DNA from: Streptomyces sp. NBC_01237
GTDB lineage: Bacteria > Actinomycetota > Actinomycetes > Streptomycetales > Streptomycetaceae
Direction: 5' to 3'
DNA length: 64,000 bases
Assembly: GCF_035917275.1 (NCBI RefSeq)
Contig: NZ_CP108508.1
Location: 4,960,001 to 5,024,000 of the forward strand
Numbering within the stretch: position 1 is the first letter of the stretch; the number at the start of each line of letters is the position of its first letter. The position numbers and the translations under genes are program-made. Shown one piece after another: positions 25,676-35,059 of this stretch. Under the pieces are notes generated by a model. The model was not told the origin of the DNA, did no database searches, and was given only the letters and a program-made list of their open reading frames with translations.

Positions 25676-25707
25676 GTGTGATGCGCCTGAAATCCTGATG
25701 CTTAGTT
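25676..25707 (+). repeat. IS left terminal inverted repeat (32 bp)
   Basis: Identical to the reverse complement of 27057-27088 over 32 bases. The next base differs (C versus A). The preceding TA at 25674-25675 is the target duplication. Confidence 0.93.
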
Positions 25708-27042
25708 CTGTTCGGTTTTCTGGCCGGTGGTTCCGACCTTGTTGAGGTAGTCGGCGAGGGAGTTGAGGTTCTCGTCGGCGGTCTTGGTCCAGGTGAAGGG
25801 CCATGGGTTCTCGTTCCAGGTGTCGATCCATGCTGAGATGTCGTCCTCCAGAGCCTTCACGGAGGTGTGGACGCTGCGGCGGATGAGCTTGTCGGTGAGT
25901 AGGCCGAACCACCGCTCGACCTGGTTCATCCAGGAGGAGCCGGTGGGGGTGAAATCGACGTGGAATCGGGGGTGTTTGGCGAGCCATGCCCTGATGTCGG
26001 CTGTGTTGTGGGTGGCGTAGTTGTCACAGACGAGGTGCACGTCGAGGCCATTGGGCACGGCCTTGTCGATCCGGGTGAGGAACTTCTTGAACTCGATCGC
26101 CCGGTGGCGGCGGTGCAGTGCCGATATGACAGTGCCGTCGGCGATGTTGAAGGCGGCGAACAGGCTGGTGATGCCGTGCCTGAGATAGTCGTGGGTGCGG
26201 CGTTCGGGCATACCCGGCATCATCGGCAGCACCGGCTGGGACCGGTCCAGTGCCTGGATCTGGGACTTCTCGTCCACGCAGAGAACGACCGCCTTCTCGG
26301 GCGGATGGTGGTACAGGCCGACAACGTCGACGACCTACGCGACGAACTGCGGATCGGTGGACAACTTGAAGGAGTCCTGCAGGTGGGGCTTGAGGCCGAA
26401 CCGCTTCCAGATCCGCCCGATCGTCGACTTCGACAGGCCCGTTCGCTGAGCCATTGAGGCCCGTGACCAGTGCGTGTCCTGGCCCGGCAACGACTCCAGG
26501 GTGGCCACGACGACCTCCTCGACCTGATCGAGGAGGATCGAAGGCGGCCGGCCCGAGCGCGGCTCGTCCTGCAGACCATCGAGGCGTTTCGCGATGAACC
26601 GGGCCCGCCAGCGGTCCACGGTCGATCGGTCGATACCGAGGTCCACCGCGGTTTGCTGGTTCGTCCCGCCCTCCGCGCAACGCAGCACGATCTTGGCCCG
26701 TAACGCGAGGAACTGCGCGGTCTTCGCCCGCCGCGCCCACTGCTGCAGCTGCCTGCGCTCGGCGTCGTCGAGGACAAGGTCTGCCTTCGGCCGGCCGATC
26801 CAGCCTGCGTCCTCAAGCCCAGCCATCCGATCCGCGGCGAAGGCCCGACGCCACTTGCCGACCGTCTTGGCCTGGACACCGACAAGCCGTGCCACACCAG
26901 CGTTCGACATGCCGTCCGCGCACAGGACGATGCGGGCCTTCTCAGCCGAGCGCCGGTGCGGCAATTCCGTCCAGCGCACCAACTCGGCACGCTCGGCCTC
27001 GGACAGTGTGATCTCCACAGCAGAAGGCCCGGGATGCGACAT
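25702..27042 (-). pseudogene. IS630-family transposase, interrupted by an amber codon
   Basis: A single reading frame of 447 codons is split by TAG at 26337-26335 (after STDPQFVA). The N-terminal part (from ATG 27042) holds two helix-turn-helix segments (RSAEKARIVLCADGMSNAGVARLVGVQAKTVGKWRR and AEGGTNQQTAVDLGIDRSTVDRWRARF) plus a third near GLSKSTIGRIWKRFG. The C-terminal part holds the DDE triad: CVDEKSQIQALDR, LVCDNYATH and SSWMNQVERWFGLL. Upstream and downstream pieces are in the same frame, so one point mutation (for example AAG or GAG to TAG) explains the break. Readthrough or suppression cannot be excluded. Confidence 0.87.
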
Positions 27043-27056
27043 GCCAACAGAGTAGT

Positions 27057-27088
27057 AACTAAGCATCAGGATTTCAGGCGCATCACAC
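27057..27088 (-). repeat. IS right terminal inverted repeat (32 bp)
   Basis: Perfect inverted copy of 25676-25707, followed by the TA target duplicate at 27089-27090. Confidence 0.93.
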
Positions 27089-27347: not shown

Positions 27348-28136
27348 TTAGCCGGTCGCGTCCCTTGATGTCTGTCGCACGATGCCCTCGATTCGAGCGC
27401 AGGCATCCACCGGATCTTCGTGTTCCCAGACGCGGATGACGGTCCACCCCGCTTCACCGAGCAGACGATCAGTCTCGGCATCGCGAGCGCGATTGCCCTC
27501 GATCTTGGTGCGCCAGAACTCGGCGTTCTTGTGTGACTCTCGAAGGTGCTCGGGGCATCCGTGCCAGTAGCAGCCGTCGACGAAGACCGCGACCTTGGGC
27601 TTGGAGAACAACACGTCAGCGGTTCGTCGCAGTTCGGGTAGTGGCCGTGCCGCCACGCGGTAGCGAAGGCCCTGCTTGTGCAGCAAGGAGCGGAGTCGCA
27701 GCTCTGGCCGGGTGTCCTTGTTCCTGTTGCCCCGCATCACCGCACGCACGGATGGCGAGGAAGCCCAGGAGCCCTCAGCCGGCGGTTCCTCGGTGAGAAG
27801 GCCCTTTTCCCAGGCCATCCTCCAACCCTCGGCGAGGTTCGCGGCCCGGGTCTCGTGCTCGACCTGTCCGAGGTAGCGGGCCGGGGACTTGCCGCCGTCG
27901 GACCAGCGCAGGTACGCGCGAATGCGTCGTGTGTCGGGAAGAACCTTCAGCTCCACAGAGGCCCGGGCGAAGCGCCCCTCGCCGAGGTCCACAGATCGTC
28001 TGTGACGACCGCCGGCCGCCCGGTCCTGCTCAGCGGCGATGGCGGAGCGTGCCCTGTCGGGCCGCCCCTTCCACGCCCGGTCCGGCGGCGGGTCGTGCTT
28101 CCAGCCGCTCTGCGCTCTGCTGGTGGGCGCCGTCAC
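27348..28136 (-). CDS. vsr: Very short patch repair endonuclease (Vsr) with N-terminal extension
   Basis: A 262-residue protein. The C-terminal ~135 residues are a Vsr endonuclease: SVRAVMRGNRNKDTRPELRLRSLLHKQGLRYRV, then ADVLFSKPKVAVFVDGCYWHGCPEHLRESHKN with the catalytic Asp and Zn/His-Cys elements, and IEGNRARDAETDRLLGEAGWTVIRVWEHE. Vsr nicks next to T:G mismatches produced by deamination of 5-methylcytosine. The first ~125 residues are an extension with a beta-rich module (RASVELKVLPDTRRIRAYLRWSDGGKSPARYLGQVEHETRAANLAEGWRMAWEKG). The GTG start (28136) overlaps the methyltransferase stop in a GTGA, so the pair is translationally coupled. Confidence 0.92.
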   Translation of the reverse strand: MTAPTSRAQSGWKHDPPPDRAWKGRPDRARSAIAAEQDRAAGGRHRRSVDLGEGRFARASVELKVLPDTRRIRAYLRWSDGGKSPARYLGQVEHETRAANLAEGWRMAWEKGLLTEEPPAEGSWASSPSVRAVMRGNRNKDTRPELRLRSLLHKQGLRYRVAARPLPELRRTADVLFSKPKVAVFVDGCYWHGCPEHLRESHKNAEFWRTKIEGNRARDAETDRLLGEAGWTVIRVWEHEDPVDACARIEGIVRQTSRDATG

Positions 28137-29449
28137 TTCTGGCGCTCCTCCGCCTCGTCCAGGACGGCGGCGACCGCCTTGGCGAAGACCTCGCCAAGGG
28201 CAACGGGTACGGCGTTGCCGAGCTGGCGCATCTTCTCCCCCCGCGGGCCCTTGAGCTCCCACGTGTCGGGGAAGGTCATGACGCGAGCGGTTTCGCGAAC
28301 CGTCATGTACCGGTACTTGTACCGGACGCCGCCCTGAGCGGCCTTGTCGGCCACCAGCTCGTCCAGGAGCATGACCGACTCGCCGCCGGGCACGCCGTGC
28401 ACGCCGGCCTTGACGGTCTTCGCCGGGCGGTCGAGTTCGTTGGGGGTGTGCCCGTCGTAGATGCGGGCACCGGGCCAACCGACGTGTTCCGTGAACCCGC
28501 CGAGGAAGTGCTCGGTGCGGTCCAGCCACTCGTCCGGTACCTCTGGCAGTGGCTTGTTGTCACCGATACCGACGATCGCGTCACGCAGGGTGTGCCAGGG
28601 GAGCAGGCCGTCGTCCATGGGCATGGTCTTCGGGAGGCGGGCCAGGACCCACTCGCGCACGTGGTCGGGCACATTCGCGTGCCGCTCCCAGTAGCTCCCG
28701 TCCTCCATGGATCGGAAGAGGGCAGTCTCGGAGTGTGTCGGCCTCACGAGGTCCTTGAAGAGCTCAAGGTCGACGTTCAGGTCGCGACGAAACGCGACGA
28801 TGATCACACGATTGCGAATCTGCGGGACCCCGTAGTCGGCTGCGTTCACCGGCATCATGACGGTGTCGTACCGCTTCCCGGGATCGTCCAGCTCCTTCTC
28901 GCGGCGCTCCAGCAGGTACTCGTAGTGCTGCTCCCAGTCGGTGCCGTCGACTCGCTCCTCGAAAGGCAGCTCCAGCTCGCGCTGGATGTAGTCGAAGTAG
29001 CGACGGAATGAGGGCCTGAGTAGACCGCGGACGTTCTCGCAGATCACGGCCTTCGGCTGGATCTGCCGGACGGCCTTGAACATCTGGGGGAACATGTTCC
29101 GCTTGTCCTCGTCGCCCTTGGCGACGCCGCCGAGGCTGAACGGCTGGCAGGGAGGGCCGCCAGCGAGGACGTCCACTTCGCCGGCCAGGTAGTCCATGTC
29201 GAGTTCTTGGACATCGCCCGCGACGAGGGGCACCTTCTCGCCGGGTTCGGGAGCCCGCGTCGGCTTCTGGCCGTCCGGCAGCCGCTGGGCCCCGTTGGCC
29301 TCCAGGGTCTCGCACGCCCGCTTGGCGAACTCATTGAAGAGCAGGGGGCGGAATCCGGCACGGTGGACGGCCATGGCCAGACCGCCGGCGCCAGCGAAGA
29401 GCTCGACACCCGTGCGGTCCTTCTTTGATCCTTCTTGCAGTTCAGCCAT
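28133..29449 (-). CDS. dcm: DNA (cytosine-5) methyltransferase
   Basis: A 438-residue C5 methyltransferase with the canonical motif order. Motif I is VELFAGAGGLAMA (about 15-27), motif IV AGGPPCQPFSLGG with the catalytic Cys at about 101, motif VI ENVRGLL at 138, and motif VIII QIRNRVIIVAF. The target recognition region covers about 270-360. Motif IX is RYMTVRETARVMTFPD and motif X QLGNAVPVALGEVF. All catalytic residues are present. It overlaps vsr downstream and is divergent from GIY-YIG nuclease genes, an arrangement of a type II restriction-modification locus. The neighbouring Eco29kI-type nuclease suggests CCGCGG as target (inference). Start ATG 29449 within an AT-rich leader. Confidence 0.95.
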   Translation of the reverse strand: MAELQEGSKKDRTGVELFAGAGGLAMAVHRAGFRPLLFNEFAKRACETLEANGAQRLPDGQKPTRAPEPGEKVPLVAGDVQELDMDYLAGEVDVLAGGPPCQPFSLGGVAKGDEDKRNMFPQMFKAVRQIQPKAVICENVRGLLRPSFRRYFDYIQRELELPFEERVDGTDWEQHYEYLLERREKELDDPGKRYDTVMMPVNAADYGVPQIRNRVIIVAFRRDLNVDLELFKDLVRPTHSETALFRSMEDGSYWERHANVPDHVREWVLARLPKTMPMDDGLLPWHTLRDAIVGIGDNKPLPEVPDEWLDRTEHFLGGFTEHVGWPGARIYDGHTPNELDRPAKTVKAGVHGVPGGESVMLLDELVADKAAQGGVRYKYRYMTVRETARVMTFPDTWELKGPRGEKMRQLGNAVPVALGEVFAKAVAAVLDEAEERQK

Positions 29450-29565
29450 TTTAAAAGCATACCGCGGAGTTGTAGATCTTCAAGCCGCTTCGAGCTGAAG
29501 GTTCGTCAGTGTGTGCAGGTCGCCGATAGGCTGCCCGCGATCATGCCGACAAGGGAGTGGGACCG
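29450..29565. promoter_or_regulatory. Divergent promoter region of the R-M island, with a CCGCGG site
   Basis: The 116-bp gap between dcm (minus) and the first GIY-YIG gene (plus) begins with the AT-rich run TTTTAAAAGCAT next to the dcm start. CCGCGG, the site of Eco29kI-type enzymes, lies at 29462-29467, 13 bp upstream of the dcm ATG. AAGGGAG at 29551-29557 is the RBS of the plus-strand gene. Self-regulation through methylation of this site is only a possibility. Confidence 0.5.
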
Positions 29566-30405
29566 ATGACGCCGGTGGTGGGCTCCGACGACGGGACGCA
29601 GTACCACAAGGACTTCACGTTGAGCATCACCAAGGCGCTCGGTGACCAGCTGGCCGCCGCCCTCGATGGACTCGACAGGGCTCCACTCACGGAGCCGAAC
29701 ATCGCGCGGCTCAAGGAGAAGCCCGGGGTCTACCAGCTCTACTTGAACGGCGAGTTCGTCTACGTCGGCAAGGCCGACAAGTCCCTGCCGGCCCGTCTCC
29801 GCAACCACCTCGGCAAGATCTCGGGGCGCCGCAACATCTCCCCGGACGAGATGGCCTTCTCGTGCCTGTACGTAGCCGAGGACTTCTCCGCCCTCGCCCC
29901 GGAACAGCTGCTCATCACCCACCACAAGGGCATGGGCGACATCCCCTGGAACAACAACGGCTTCGGCAACAAGGATCCTGGCCGCCAGCGGGACAGCACC
30001 GTCCTGAAGCAGAACCACTTCGACGTCGTGTTCCCCATCGATCTTGACCGGCCGATCAAGGGGTTGTTGCCCGGCGAGACGACGCTGCAGGAACTCCTGG
30101 AGACGATCAAGGCTGGCCTCCCGTACAACTTCAGGTACGGAAAGTCGGCGGACTTCAAGGCTCGAAGCGTCCACGTGCCATCGGCCGCAATGACCGCCGA
30201 CGAGGTCTTCCAGCTGGTCTCGGCGGAGATACCGGCTAAATGGCAGGTCGCCGCTCTCATGGGCTACGTGATCATGTACGACGACAGCCCCAATGACTAC
30301 AAGAGCGCGTGGCGGTACTACCGCGCTGGCCAACGCGTCAACGCCGTGCCCGAGGCCGAGCCGGCAGGGGACATCGAAGTCGATCCGCCAACAACAGGGG
30401 GCTGA
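29566..30405 (+). CDS. GIY-YIG nuclease-family protein (probable restriction subunit)
   Basis: A 279-residue protein. The GIY-YIG core starts at residue 54: GVYQLYLNGEFVYVGKADK gives GVY (54-56) and YVG (66-68). ARLRNHLG follows with the conserved Arg and a His. Then EQLLI with the metal-binding Glu at about 113 and IPWNNNGFGNKDPGRQR with the Asn. This last segment resembles the WN..GFG motif of the Eco29kI group, and the next two genes share it. The C-terminal ~120 residues form an unassigned domain (KGLLPGETTLQELLETIKAGLPYNFRYG...). The ATG at 29566 has AAGGGAG at 8-nt spacing. Role alongside the Eco29kI gene 69 bp downstream, as a second nuclease or partner subunit, is inferred. Confidence 0.82.
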   Translation: MTPVVGSDDGTQYHKDFTLSITKALGDQLAAALDGLDRAPLTEPNIARLKEKPGVYQLYLNGEFVYVGKADKSLPARLRNHLGKISGRRNISPDEMAFSCLYVAEDFSALAPEQLLITHHKGMGDIPWNNNGFGNKDPGRQRDSTVLKQNHFDVVFPIDLDRPIKGLLPGETTLQELLETIKAGLPYNFRYGKSADFKARSVHVPSAAMTADEVFQLVSAEIPAKWQVAALMGYVIMYDDSPNDYKSAWRYYRAGQRVNAVPEAEPAGDIEVDPPTTGG

Positions 30406-30473
30406 CCCAGCCCGCGCGGACCAGCATCCCATCCAGTAGCCAACGATTCCGAACAAGAAAAGGAGTAGCCGCC

Positions 30474-31163
30474 GTGTCAGCCCAACTTCCCTTCGATGGC
30501 GTCGTGGACGAGCCGCCAAAGGCTGGCGCCGACAGCATCTACGACCCGCTTCGACGGGAAAACCTCGGGCGCAGTGTGCTCTGGGCGCTAACGTCCGGCG
30601 AGCCTATTCGGATGGACAGGGTCCGGTCGTTCAACGGCTGCGGGATCTACGCGATCTACTACGCGGGGGACCACGAGCTGTACGCGCCGATCTCCGGATC
30701 GTTCGAGGTGCCCATTTATGTGGGCAAGTCTGATCCTGAGGGCGGCCGCAAGGGCGTTGAGGTCGCTGAAGCGTGGGCAGGAACGCCGCTTTGGAAGCGA
30801 CTCTCGACCCATCGGCGGAAGCTCAAAGCGGCCGCTGATTTCGAACTGGAAGACTTCTACGTCCGCTACCTCCCCGCCGACGACCTCTTCACGCCGATGG
30901 CCGAGCGCTTGATGATCCAAGACCTCCAGCCTGTCTGGAACGTGATACTTGAGGGCTTCGGTGTGAACCCCCAGGGAGGGCCCCGCCAGGCCGAACAGAT
31001 GCGACCAAAGTGGCATGAGGTCCACACCGGTGTGGCGTGGGCCGACGGGATGCGCCCCCAGCCATCGGGGCCCGTGCCACTCCGAGAAGCGGTCCGCGAG
31101 CACCTGAAGCTGCATGCAACGCCTCCGACGAGCGCGGCCGGGCGGCCCCCCGGAGCGATCTGA
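30474..31163 (+). CDS. Eco29kI-family type II restriction endonuclease
   Basis: A 229-residue GIY-YIG restriction enzyme. It begins with the family opening YDPLRRENLGRSVLWAL (about 23-39). GCGIYAIYYAGDHELYAPI and VPIYVGKSDPEGG give GIY (57-59) and YVG (82-84). WKRLSTHRRKL supplies Arg109 and His113, AERLMIQDLQPVWNVILEGFG supplies Glu144 and Asn156. Spacing agrees closely with Eco29kI (CCGCGG cutter), so the active site looks complete. GTG start at 30474 with AGGAG at 8 nt. It lies 68 bp after the first GIY-YIG gene, probably co-transcribed. The divergent C5 methyltransferase is the expected protective partner. Confidence 0.92.
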   Translation: MSAQLPFDGVVDEPPKAGADSIYDPLRRENLGRSVLWALTSGEPIRMDRVRSFNGCGIYAIYYAGDHELYAPISGSFEVPIYVGKSDPEGGRKGVEVAEAWAGTPLWKRLSTHRRKLKAAADFELEDFYVRYLPADDLFTPMAERLMIQDLQPVWNVILEGFGVNPQGGPRQAEQMRPKWHEVHTGVAWADGMRPQPSGPVPLREAVREHLKLHATPPTSAAGRPPGAI

Positions 31164-31439
31164 TCACGCTCTAAGCCGACCCGTGGGCGGTGGCTCACTG
31201 GCGGAATGATCAGGGAACCAGCCGAGGCCACCATCTCCGAAGCAGGCGCCATCGAGATTCCCTTGGGGTACTCGCGGAGGCGCGGCTGTCTCCAGGAGCC
31301 GCTGTCGTTGTGTATAGCGCCGGGGATGGGCGGATCGTTGTTTCGCAGGCGAGACGACGCGATCCGTGATCTGTTGGAGAAGGGCATGCTGTGTAGTCCG
31401 GGTGCCCCCAGCCTGGTCCGTCGGTCGAAGCCATGCGCT

Positions 31440-32315
31440 TTAGTCACTTGCCACGCGAGCGAAGTGCTGCCGCACCGCCCGTTGCAGATCGGCGCGGCTC
31501 AACTCGGCGTCCCTCTGGCGCTCGGACTGCGGCCTTCCCGGATGCAGCTCATCCCAGAACGTCCGAGGGGTCGTTGCCGCCCGAAAGCTCCCCTGCATGT
31601 GGACCCCGAAGCCTTCGACGACGTTCCAGACCGGTCGGTGATCACCGATCATGAGCCGCTCAGGGCCGATCGTCCAGATTTCGTCTACTGGGAGATACCG
31701 CACCAGGAAGTCCAGGGCATCAAGGTCGTGTACGTCCTCAAGCGATCTCAGATGAGTGCGCAGCCGACGATTCATGGAACCCCGGACGGCCATCCCGCTA
31801 CGAGACTTCCCACTCGGCAGGGACTTGTCGACATAGATCGGAACCGCGCAAGCCGATGAGGACACCGGGCGATAGAGCGAGTGCGACCCCACGTAATACA
31901 GGGCGTACAGACCTTCGACCGGCGCCGCAGGGAACGAGGCAAGCGGGACGGGTGGAGCACTTTCCAGCGCCCACTGCACTGACCGTTCCAGGTTCTCGCG
32001 CCGTAGCGGGTCGAACCGGCCTGAAGTGTCGGCGGCATCGTCTACCTCAGAGCTGGGTTCTCGGGCGAACTGCCGGCTCCGGTCCTCTGCTCGCGGCCCG
32101 GGGGGCGGGGTCCGCCGATCCTCCTTGGCTTGCCTGAGCAGTTCAAGCAACGGGGTCGAGTCCGCGCCGAGAGCCTGGCAGATCCTAACGACCGTATCCG
32201 CAGATGGGATTTTCCGGCCCTTACGGGCGTTCAGTGCGTTGCTGATCACTGTCCGCCCCAGAGAACCGCACCTAGCGACGAGCTGATTGACGTTCCAGCC
32301 GCTCATCACACGCAA
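31440..32315 (-). CDS. HTH domain fused to an Eco29kI-like GIY-YIG nuclease domain
   Basis: A 291-residue fusion. Residues 1-60 are an XRE-type helix-turn-helix (WNVNQLVARCGSLGRTVISNALNARKGRKIPSADTVVRICQALG). A polar linker (about 62-98) leads to an Eco29kI domain: FDPLRRENLERSVQWAL, GLYALYYVGSHSLY (135-137), VPIYVDKSLPSG, MNRRLRTHLRSL, ERLMIGDHRPVWNVVEGFG. The Arg/His, Glu219 and Asn231 equivalents are kept, but the Gly of the YVG motif is Asp163 (YVDK). So the protein might bind the R-M promoter or DNA site with reduced or no cleavage. The start is uncertain: TTG 32315 or ATG 32306; no good RBS. It converges on the nuclease gene. Confidence 0.88.
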   Translation of the reverse strand: MRVMSGWNVNQLVARCGSLGRTVISNALNARKGRKIPSADTVVRICQALGADSTPLLELLRQAKEDRRTPPPGPRAEDRSRQFAREPSSEVDDAADTSGRFDPLRRENLERSVQWALESAPPVPLASFPAAPVEGLYALYYVGSHSLYRPVSSSACAVPIYVDKSLPSGKSRSGMAVRGSMNRRLRTHLRSLEDVHDLDALDFLVRYLPVDEIWTIGPERLMIGDHRPVWNVVEGFGVHMQGSFRAATTPRTFWDELHPGRPQSERQRDAELSRADLQRAVRQHFARVASD

Positions 32316-33143: not shown

Positions 33144-33670
33144 TTCCGTTCCGTGCCCTTGAGTGCGAAGGGGCGGCGGAGGCGACGGTGCCAGGGGTGG
33201 CCGTTCGGGAGCCGAGTGGAACCGCCGTGGTCGGGGCTCCGTACGCGATCGATCCGGGCGGTGGGCCTGCTCACGTGCGGCTCGGCGGTCGCCGGGGGCC
33301 CAAGTGCTGTCCCGGGGTGCGGGGTGCGCGGATCCGCGGGGGATCGGCCGTGCTCGGGGATTCGGTGCGTGCCGGAGTTCCGGGTCGGCGGGGAGAAGGC
33401 GTTGGGTCACGGCGAAATGGGCGTGATTCGCCACCGGGTCGGCTCCGGATGCGAAGCCTTTCCCTGGATCGCTCGGAAATGCGCGAACGGACCGGGTTCG
33501 GATTCCGGTGTGATGAAGTCGCCTTCGCCCTTCCGGGAACAGCGTGCGATGGACGTATGGCGCGCGGCCCCATGAACTGGCTCTTGTCCTACCGAAATTC
33601 TATTCATCCCAACGAGTGCACCGAATTCAGAAGGGCGGTGGAAGGCCCATAAGAATGGTGGAGCCTCCCG
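33144..33670. other. Non-coding stretch right of the element
   Basis: About 530 bp with no supportable gene. Open frames on either strand have no family resemblance and poor starts. The last 150 bp (33540-33670) are less GC-rich and probably hold the promoter of the next gene. Confidence 0.5.
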
Positions 33671-35059
33671 TTGTTGCAGTCGTTGGAGATGCTGTTGACC
33701 AGTTATGACATGCCCGCCCACGACCACAACGCCTCGTCCCGGGCTCCGGCTCCGGGATTGTTCCGCGGTCCGGGGGACGCGGCGAGTTTCGCGCCCGCCG
33801 CGCTCGGATACGCCCTCTTCGCCACCCGCTGGCTCCAGGCCCCGCTGTATTTCGGACTCGTCGCCGCGCAGGGCGTCTATGTCTACAAGTTCTTCAACGA
33901 GCTGTGGAAATTAATCGGTCATGTCATCAACGGTTACGCGGACGAGACGTATGTCATGCTCGCCGTCCTCAAACTGGTCGACGTCGTGATGATCGCCAAT
34001 CTGCTGATCATGACGATCGTCGGCGGCTACGAGACCTTCGTCTCGCGCATCAATCTCCAGGGTCATCGAGATCAGCCGGAATGGCTCTCGCACGTCAACT
34101 CGAACGTGCTCAAGGTCAAGCTCGCCACCGCCATCGTGGGTATTTCGTCCGTACATCTGCTTCAGATGTTCGTCGATGTGCACCACACTTCCCGGCACGC
34201 GCTGCTGTGGGGGACCGTGATCCACATGGCCTTCATCCTGTCCGCCGCGATTCTGGCCTATATGTCGGGCCCCATGCTGGAGTCGCGGAAGGGCGGTCAT
34301 GGGGACGGTGGGGGCGGTGGCCATGCGGAGGGTCACGGGGGAGGGAATCCGCAGCTGATCCCGAAGCAGTCCGGCGGGACGCACGGCGAGGTCACGTCGG
34401 TGGGGCGGGCGGTGCCTTCCGCGTCGGCGGCGATGCCGGCCGCCTCGCGTGGAGGTTCGGGCGCCGATTCCCGTATCCGCGCCGCGGGCTTCCCCGCCCC
34501 CAAGACCCTGGAGGACTTCGACCACGACTTCGTCAGGTCGCTCGACCGGGAGGCGGTGGACACGCTCGGGAAGCTGGACTTCATCACCGCCAAGGAGAAC
34601 GTGGTGCTCCTCGGTCCGCCCGGCACCGGCAAGACCCACCTCGCCGTCGCCTTCGGTACGCGCGCCTGCCAGGCCGGCCACCAGGTGCTGTTCGCCACCG
34701 CCGCCGAATGGGCCGCCCGGCTCGCCGACGCCAAGGCCGCGGGCCGCCTCACCAAGGAACTGGCCCTGCTGGACCGGTACCCCCTGCTGATCGTCGACGC
34801 GCTGGGCTGCTTCCCTCTGGAGGCCGAAGAGGCCCAGCTCCTCTCCCGACTCGTGGCGCACCGCTACGAGCGCGGCTCGCTGGTCGTCACCAGCGACAAG
34901 CCCCTGAGCGGCTGGGACCTCGTCCTCGGCGACGCCGCGGTGGCCTCGGCCGTGATCGACCGCCTCGTCCACCACTGCGAGATCATCGGCGTCGAGGGGG
35001 ACAACTACCGGATGCGCGACCACGGCGGCTTCGGTTTCGCGTCCTCGGCCGCCCGCTGA
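33671..35059 (+). CDS. YqhA-type membrane domain fused to an IstB-like AAA+ ATPase
   Basis: A 462-residue fusion. Residues ~45-205 match the YqhA/UPF0114 membrane family (RWLQAPLYFGLVAAQGVYVYKF, VMLAVLKLVDVVMIANLLIMTIVGGYETFVSRI, EWLSHVNSNVLKVKLATAIVGISSVHLLQMF), with 3-4 membrane spans. A Gly/His-rich linker (~209-228) follows. Residues ~265-455 match IstB/DnaC-like ATPases: Walker A GPPGTGKTH (315-323), LLIVDALGCFPLEAEEAQLL, then RYERGSLVVTSDKPLSGWD. The usual Walker B Asp-Glu is Asp376-Ala, and sensor-1 TSN is TSD, so hydrolysis may be impaired. A TTA codon lies at 33911 (residue 81). The start is TTG 33671 with GGAG at 8 nt; ATG 33710 is an alternative. No IS21 partner is nearby. Confidence 0.85.
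   Translation: MLQSLEMLLTSYDMPAHDHNASSRAPAPGLFRGPGDAASFAPAALGYALFATRWLQAPLYFGLVAAQGVYVYKFFNELWKLIGHVINGYADETYVMLAVLKLVDVVMIANLLIMTIVGGYETFVSRINLQGHRDQPEWLSHVNSNVLKVKLATAIVGISSVHLLQMFVDVHHTSRHALLWGTVIHMAFILSAAILAYMSGPMLESRKGGHGDGGGGGHAEGHGGGNPQLIPKQSGGTHGEVTSVGRAVPSASAAMPAASRGGSGADSRIRAAGFPAPKTLEDFDHDFVRSLDREAVDTLGKLDFITAKENVVLLGPPGTGKTHLAVAFGTRACQAGHQVLFATAAEWAARLADAKAAGRLTKELALLDRYPLLIVDALGCFPLEAEEAQLLSRLVAHRYERGSLVVTSDKPLSGWDLVLGDAAVASAVIDRLVHHCEIIGVEGDNYRMRDHGGFGFASSAAR

Follow-up and report, generated by a model that had tools for sequence, protein, structure and literature searches.

A conserved fusion of a YqhA-type membrane domain with an IstB-type AAA+ domain in Streptomyces

Proteins of the YqhA family (UPF0114, TIGR00645) are present in bacteria and archaea, as seen in our control genomes, and they also occur in plant chloroplast envelopes. 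Neither a known function of YqhA nor a solved relative was found in literature and structure searches. As far as the sections used here of two studies tell, a W14L substitution in E. coli YqhA arose in an inhibitor-tolerant strain (PMC10991953), and overexpression of E. coli YqhA raised the resistance to H2O2 (PMC8228696). IstB (PF01695) is the AAA+ helper ATPase of IS21-type elements. For IstB of IS5376, the part of the published account drawn on here describes that the N-terminal domain dimerises the protein and contacts DNA, that the AAA+ module on its own has a 30-fold lower affinity for duplex than the full-length protein, and that the E167Q exchange lowers the ATPase activity and renders the complex more stable (PMC11208146). 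For two other AAA+ proteins, DnaA and DnaC, the excerpted section of a review gives KD values for ATP of ~0.03 uM and ~8 uM, respectively, and the title of a reference cited there credits the sensor-1 Asp with the tight ATP/ADP binding of DnaA (PMC5872134). No description of a YqhA-IstB fusion was found in print in the open-access literature.

Such a fusion is encoded in the 10.19 Mb genome of Streptomyces sp. NBC_01237, within the stretch of 64,000 nucleotides that was analysed here (the window). A single open frame without internal stops runs from 33671 to 35059 on the plus strand and codes for 462 amino acids. It begins with TTG, but several relatives start around residues 9-14 of the window protein, so that the start codon is uncertain and an ATG at 33710 is a possible alternative. 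On the same strand follow the UPF0114/YqhA membrane domain at 33815..34171 (PF03350 at residues 49-167, 125.9 bits versus a Pfam cut-off of 23.1; TIGR00645 at residues 48-199, 177.7 bits versus an NCBIfam cut-off of 144.4), a fast-evolving, disordered linker at 34277..34456 (approximately residues 203-262; counted as 65 residues, with 19 Gly and 4 His), and the IstB AAA+ domain at 34469..35020 (PF01695 at residues 267-450, 204.6 bits versus 24.1; NF038214 IS21_help_AAA, 224.6 bits versus 200). A first-pass annotation, made from the DNA letters alone, had described YqhA joined to IstB through a Gly/His-rich linker in one frame, and the open reading frame with both Pfam domains above their cut-offs bears this out. 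The protein is a new domain combination of two known families.

The search for further fusions that this annotation had suggested revealed a conserved arrangement. Both domains are present in 120 of 120 relatives at 60-99% identity. These are the best 120 of 6,259 passing proteins, and since they are the nearest relatives, counts based on them are biased towards the window's kind; P0001 among them represents the cluster to which the window protein itself belongs and differs from it at three residues. PF03350 was found in 33 of the 199 Streptomyces genomes searched, and 30 of these 33 carry the IstB fusion in one frame, which rules out two genes joined by a sequencing error. The remaining three comprise two loci cut by contig ends (G032 and G081) and a divergent unfused gene (G012). 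A family-level search gave a match in 23 of 297 genomes, and 14 of 16 further genomes with PF03350 carried the fusion, the exceptions being an unfused gene in a Streptomyces (G806) and a yqhA remnant in another genus of the family (G608). In this latter genome, what appears to be only the 3' half of a yqhA is present, with 83% identity over 72 residues (L212/L210). A scan covering 84,980 species with one genome each gave 182 relatives, of which 80 were kept, all titled Streptomyces, and the fusion occupies one open frame at all 80 of these named loci. In a phylum-wide sample of 396 genomes, 24 of them with a match, IstB was absent at 21 of 21 non-Streptomyces loci, 18 of which were also too distant for the single-sequence YqhA query; for L145-L162, unfused means no IstB match within 3 kb, and tblastn matched neither domain query there. 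The complete set of 210 loci includes duplicates and non-fusion controls, so that the 161 counted in it are no rate, and a simple gene finder made no fusion call in 7 of 81 sets (the 80 named loci and the window).

Some database records, among them P0126, P0128 and P0148, show apparent frame breaks, as judged by eye, in or near the linker or the last helix, or they end at contig edges; these breaks may reflect sequencing error or decay. Many of the fusions are listed at NCBI as "IS21-like element helper ATPase IstB", with no hint of the membrane half, and others are named after TIGR00645 only.

Structure prediction, which had likewise been proposed beforehand, yielded a full-length model in which the membrane part has four helices, the linker is unstructured (pLDDT <50 at 208-261) and the AAA+ domain is confidently predicted; its pTM of 0.45 makes the model uninformative on the relative placement of these parts. 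The YqhA part was modelled with a pLDDT of 86 as four long helices at residues 41-86, 92-127, 137-168 and 175-199, with mean hydropathies of 0.98, 2.41, 1.58 and 1.87, the first helix being weakly hydrophobic. Three basic residues lie on the N-terminal side, two just past helix 4, four in the helix 2-3 loop when its edge is counted (two without it), and one in each of the two other loops. As the basic residues concentrate at the N-terminal side, in the helix 2-3 loop and after helix 4, both termini of the membrane part are likely cytosolic, which would place the ATPase in the cytosol. The best Foldseek matches of the AAA+ model are the IstB structures 8q3w, 8q4d and 5bq5 (E 1e-13 to 1e-12), and DnaA and DnaC come next.

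With IstB of IS5376 the fusion thus shares the AAA+ fold (35% identity), and with the ten closest stand-alone Streptomyces IstBs that were fetched it shares 55-60% identity together with Walker A and the arginines. In contrast to these proteins it lacks the N-terminal dimerisation and DNA domain, has a membrane protein attached and no IstA partner that was found, and it differs in its sensor 1 Asp, its mostly negative net charge and, in the window's clade, its Walker B Ala. The membrane domain is complete as in stand-alone YqhA proteins, with up to 87% identity to unfused Streptomyces YqhA and 80-82% to that of Kitasatospora. Unfused YqhA, which occurs in sister Streptomyces and in Kitasatospora, ends after a short tail, whereas the fusion continues into the ATPase in the same frame. 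Since a His/Pro-rich tail is already present in unfused YqhA proteins, part of the linker probably descends from this C-terminal tail.

The absence of the N-terminal IstB domain had escaped the first-pass annotation. The PF01695 match spans profile positions 51-234 of 238, and a comparison of the junctions, which read ...REVAARDSHGAESRI in stand-alone helpers and ...GA(E/D)SRIRAA in the fusions, places the cut at the end of this domain. An HMM of 17 stand-alone N-terminal domains did not find the domain in 102 linkers (best E 0.14, versus 1.5e-34 for the best control); the search covered 102 of 105 distinct fusions, as three were without linker anchors. By these comparisons, the three-helix N-terminal domain for dimerisation and DNA contact is lost from the fusion. 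Of the 19 stand-alone IstB loci fetched, 17 were compared, and L180 and L181 were left out, the latter being read separately.

A tree computed from the IstB part with a quick method (140 rows, without the motif columns) unites the 122 fusion rows, which include the window twice, in one group with a support of 98 that adjoins stand-alone Streptomyces IS21 helpers. In the tree of the YqhA part, unfused rows from Catenulispora, Kitasatospora and 16 from Streptomyces branch first, and 36 fusion rows are grouped (98/91), with one unfused row, P0131, nested within at an exact position that is weakly supported. One unfused row among fusions calls for two changes, the simplest assumption being a gain followed by a loss. 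The trees fit a single fusion event inside Streptomyces with one later loss, and the strain with P0131 seems to have lost the ATPase again.

The Walker A motif GPPGTGKT (residues 315-322, 34613..34636) is intact. Arg431 in a DRL motif (34961..34963) is a residue that we take to be a candidate arginine finger, and together with K321 and T322 of Walker A, D376 of Walker B and R447 it is invariant in 120 of 120 relatives (the best 120 of 6,259). Arg447 (35009..35011) is the equivalent of the sensor 2 Arg237 of IS5376 IstB, going by the part of that account used here (PMC11208146). The same source gives E167 as the Walker B Glu and Tyr170 as the switch residue; in the window protein, Walker B is Asp376-Ala377 (GAC GCG, 34796..34801), with Ala at the Glu position, and in the alignment Cys380 (34808..34810) replaces Tyr170, a change that the first-pass annotation had not listed. 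Asp409 (34895..34897) replaces the sensor 1 residue Asn199 of IstB, again by alignment. The intact Walker A, the Asp-Ala at 376-377 and the TSD at sensor 1 were therefore read correctly at the outset, and with Ala377 and Asp409 the complete IstB hydrolysis motifs, Walker B Glu and sensor 1 Asn, are absent. Both are present in 18 of 18 stand-alone IstB rows of the tree and likewise in the additional L181, whereas the motifs of L180 were not recovered.

These two changes differ in their distribution. Of the best 120 of 6,259, 95 have Glu as the second Walker B residue and 25 have Ala (D-E and D-A in the following), so that the Asp-Ala change, whose conservation was to be checked, does not characterise the family. 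It is confined to the window's clade and needs no more than one change on the tree. Within the fusion rows of the IstB-part tree, a single group with a support of 100 holds all 12 D-A rows. Sensor 1, on the other hand, is Asp in 117 of the same 120 proteins, with Gly in two and Ala in one, and in the broader set it is Asp in 108 of 122 fusion rows, Asn in nine and another residue in five, with a minimum of nine changes on the tree. By this distribution, the sensor-1 change from Asn to Asp is older and wider than the Walker B change from Glu to Ala; the nine rows with Asn and the at least nine changes also indicate that the Asp is not strictly required. The nine fusions with sensor-1 Asn form one subclade (L010, L014, L095, L097, L101, L109, L132, L195 and L019), eight of them with Arg-Pro next, and their Asn may be a reversion from Asp. 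The switch Tyr is retained in 115 of the best 120 of 6,259, and the five exceptions all belong to the 25 D-A members. A D-E row with His at this position (L119) was seen in the broader set.

The sensor-1 motif reads TSDKP in the window protein and TSDRP or a close variant in most fusions, compared with TSNKP in the closest stand-alone helpers and SSDRP in DnaA of the window's genome. The fusion therefore resembles the AAA+ domain of DnaA in having the sensor 1 Asp within an S/T-S-D-R/K-P motif. Unlike DnaA, however, the window protein is far below the cut-off of the DnaA family (TIGR00362, 22.2 bits versus 343.9), and because the domain scores as IstB and groups with it, in a tree without DnaA, we read the resemblance as convergence. 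The loss of the Walker B Glu has a laboratory counterpart in the IstB mutant E167Q (PDB 8q4d), which stabilises the transposase complex according to the portion of the study used here (PMC11208146), but the D-A change is natural, fixed in a clade and leads to Ala instead of Gln. Judged from these residues, the form found in the window's clade is probably non-hydrolysing.

The D-A protein is under purifying selection, as the codon-model omega of its IstB part is 0.073 (four genomes) and similar to the values of 0.047-0.074 in five D-E clades of three to seven genomes each, from which the set DE_N was excluded and three rows of DE_e were left out. The YqhA part gave values of 0.010-0.019. Pair counts gave a median omega for the IstB part of 0.38 in the D-A clade versus 0.24-0.32 in the five D-E clades, and two of six D-A pairs were indistinguishable from neutrality, so that some mild relaxation is compatible with the small sample of four genomes. 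In pairwise comparisons, the linker is almost free of constraint, three of 20 pairs being without a value.

Changes in charge accompany the fusion. For the ten closest stand-alone IstBs, the net charge of the domain ranges from +1 to +5, compared with a median of -2 (-9 to +3) in the fusions and of -3 in the D-A clade. At the stretch of the initiator-specific motif, stand-alone IstBs have charges of 0 to +2, whereas 89 of 122 fusion rows have negative ones; with values of -1 to +1, the window's clade shows a slight loss here. As positive charge is lost and the N-terminal domain is gone, DNA clamping by the fusion protein appears unlikely. A partner transposase was also sought. No IS21 transposase was found above the cut-off in the window's genome, which has three weak matches below it, and five IstA queries found none in the window and none in 79 of the 80 named loci, with flanks of up to 10 kb per side. 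The one match in these flanks is a fragment of 65 amino acids at L062. The sole other PF01695 match above the cut-off in the genome, with 39.8 bits, lies inside dnaA.

A conserved and probably non-coding leader of ~75 bases precedes the fusion gene at 33586..33660 on the plus strand; its frame relative to the open reading frame is not kept. With at most 14 substitutions allowed, 92 of 107 upstream regions contain its 37-base core but none of 107 shuffled ones does; the window is counted twice and one unfused gene is included. The leader occurs in many clades, including the window's clade, whose gene sits at another place, and it was not found at L062, L070, L076 and L017, nor at the unfused L199; it matches no Rfam family. 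The leader is probably regulatory DNA of the fusion gene. An XPB-like helicase gene lies within the flank of the fusion in 54 of the 80 named loci, usually on the opposite strand, and in the window's genome the helicase region lies ~77 kb away with several of the usual neighbours and without the fusion gene. An island upstream in the window (27348-32315) encodes a C5 cytosine methylase and a Vsr-like protein as well as three Eco29kI-family restriction endonucleases, of which two score above the Pfam cut-off and one just below it. At 25702-27066 on the minus strand, a helix-turn-helix and a DDE_3 open reading frame adjoin each other like a split transposase, presumably of the IS630 type.

We tentatively favour, with a little less than even confidence, the explanation that the fusion protein is a host-domesticated, membrane-tethered ATP switch that binds its nucleotide tightly and acts on YqhA, with a hydrolysis-free reset in the D-A clade. 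YqhA would have been joined once inside Streptomyces to the AAA+ core of an IS21 helper ATPase, and the AAA+ domains would no longer hold DNA or transposase. Instead, they would bind ATP tightly, as in DnaA with the same sensor-1 Asp, and pack together via ATP and the arginine finger beneath a YqhA oligomer, so that nucleotide occupancy would determine how the YqhA part assembles or is gated. For the D-A clade, a reset by ATP binding and release, or by ADP exchange, would take the place of hydrolysis. An early step after the fusion looks like a shift to tight nucleotide binding, as suggested by the DnaA-like sensor-1 Asp motif and the low KD of DnaA for ATP; the window's clade would then have lost the Walker B Glu in a later step. 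The first-pass annotation had proposed a membrane-tethered, ATP-binding, hydrolysis-poor switch. With the conserved fusion and the intact ATP pocket, the tethered switch is still reasonable, but hydrolysis-poor cannot define the family, since D-A is confined to the window's clade (25 of the best 120 of 6,259). The switch explanation draws on the conserved fusion with its single origin, the absent N-terminal domain, the lowered net charge, the sensor-1 Asp of most fusions, the invariant pocket residues among the best 120 of 6,259, the purifying selection and the lack of an IS21 transposase above the cut-off in the genome. Against it speak the unfused YqhA that serves sister Streptomyces, the apparent renewed loss of the ATPase in one strain, the nearly free linker, the sensor-1 Asn of nine of 122 fusion rows and the slight change of charge at the initiator-specific stretch in the window's clade, as well as a D-A omega that comes from four genomes and pair counts that are higher for D-A. 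What the switch would control is a guess, as no YqhA function or solved relative was found.

Several of these points would equally suit a passenger domain, where yqhA reads through into a transposon relic that is tolerated and has no function of its own. The unfused YqhA in close Streptomyces and Kitasatospora, the nested unfused P0131 with its weakly supported placement, the nearly unconstrained linker, the several records apparently frame-broken by eye in or near it, and the hint of mild relaxation in the D-A pair counts all agree with this. We nevertheless consider it unlikely, because the codon-model omega of 0.047-0.074 for the ATPase part, D-A clade included, the ATP-pocket residues invariant in the best 120 of 6,259 and the single open frame in all 80 named loci speak against it. 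Similarly improbable in our opinion is an ordinary cycling ATPase, in which ATP hydrolysis by D-E members powers YqhA, the D-A form being a locked or weakened derivative without a special role. Among the best 120 of 6,259, the Walker B Glu in 95 members, all of them with the switch Tyr, and the variation of this Tyr in five of 25 D-A members would be understandable in this way, the broader set adding one D-E row, L119, with His at the switch position; yet sensor 1 is altered in most D-E members too, and the codon model gives no weaker selection on the D-A clade.

It is also conceivable that the IstB part has kept its hold on the chromosome and thereby anchors it at the membrane, given that IstB clamps DNA (PMC11208146, in the part used) and that the stretch of the initiator-specific motif is retained and about neutral in the D-A clade. 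This seems quite improbable, as most fusions carry a net negative charge (with a D-A median of -3) and the missing N-terminal domain contributes to the 30-fold gain in DNA affinity in IS5376 IstB, as given in that same part of the account (PMC11208146). That the fusion still assists IS21 transposition, as the NCBI name of many such proteins and the passed NF038214 cut-off would imply, is very hard to believe in view of the absent N-terminal domain, the lack of an IS21 transposase above the cut-off in the genome and the IstA queries that stayed empty in the window and in 79 of 80 named loci (flanks of up to 10 kb per side).

Seen more broadly, a target-DNA clamp of a transposon would have been captured as a cytosolic regulatory module and turned stepwise into a DnaA-like nucleotide switch, with one clade as a natural ATP-binding pseudo-ATPase under selection; we regard this as a possible course of events that deserves some doubt. 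If true, an IstB-type AAA+ protein would have taken on a role in the cell that does not involve DNA. The steps by which a transposon ATPase became a cell protein would include the loss of the N-terminal domain, the loss of positive charge and the sensor-1 change, in whichever order, and the loss of the catalytic Glu as a later step in one clade. Many Streptomyces genes called "IS21-like element helper ATPase IstB" are, in consequence, misnamed, and a nucleotide-binding module on YqhA would provide a handle on what YqhA does.
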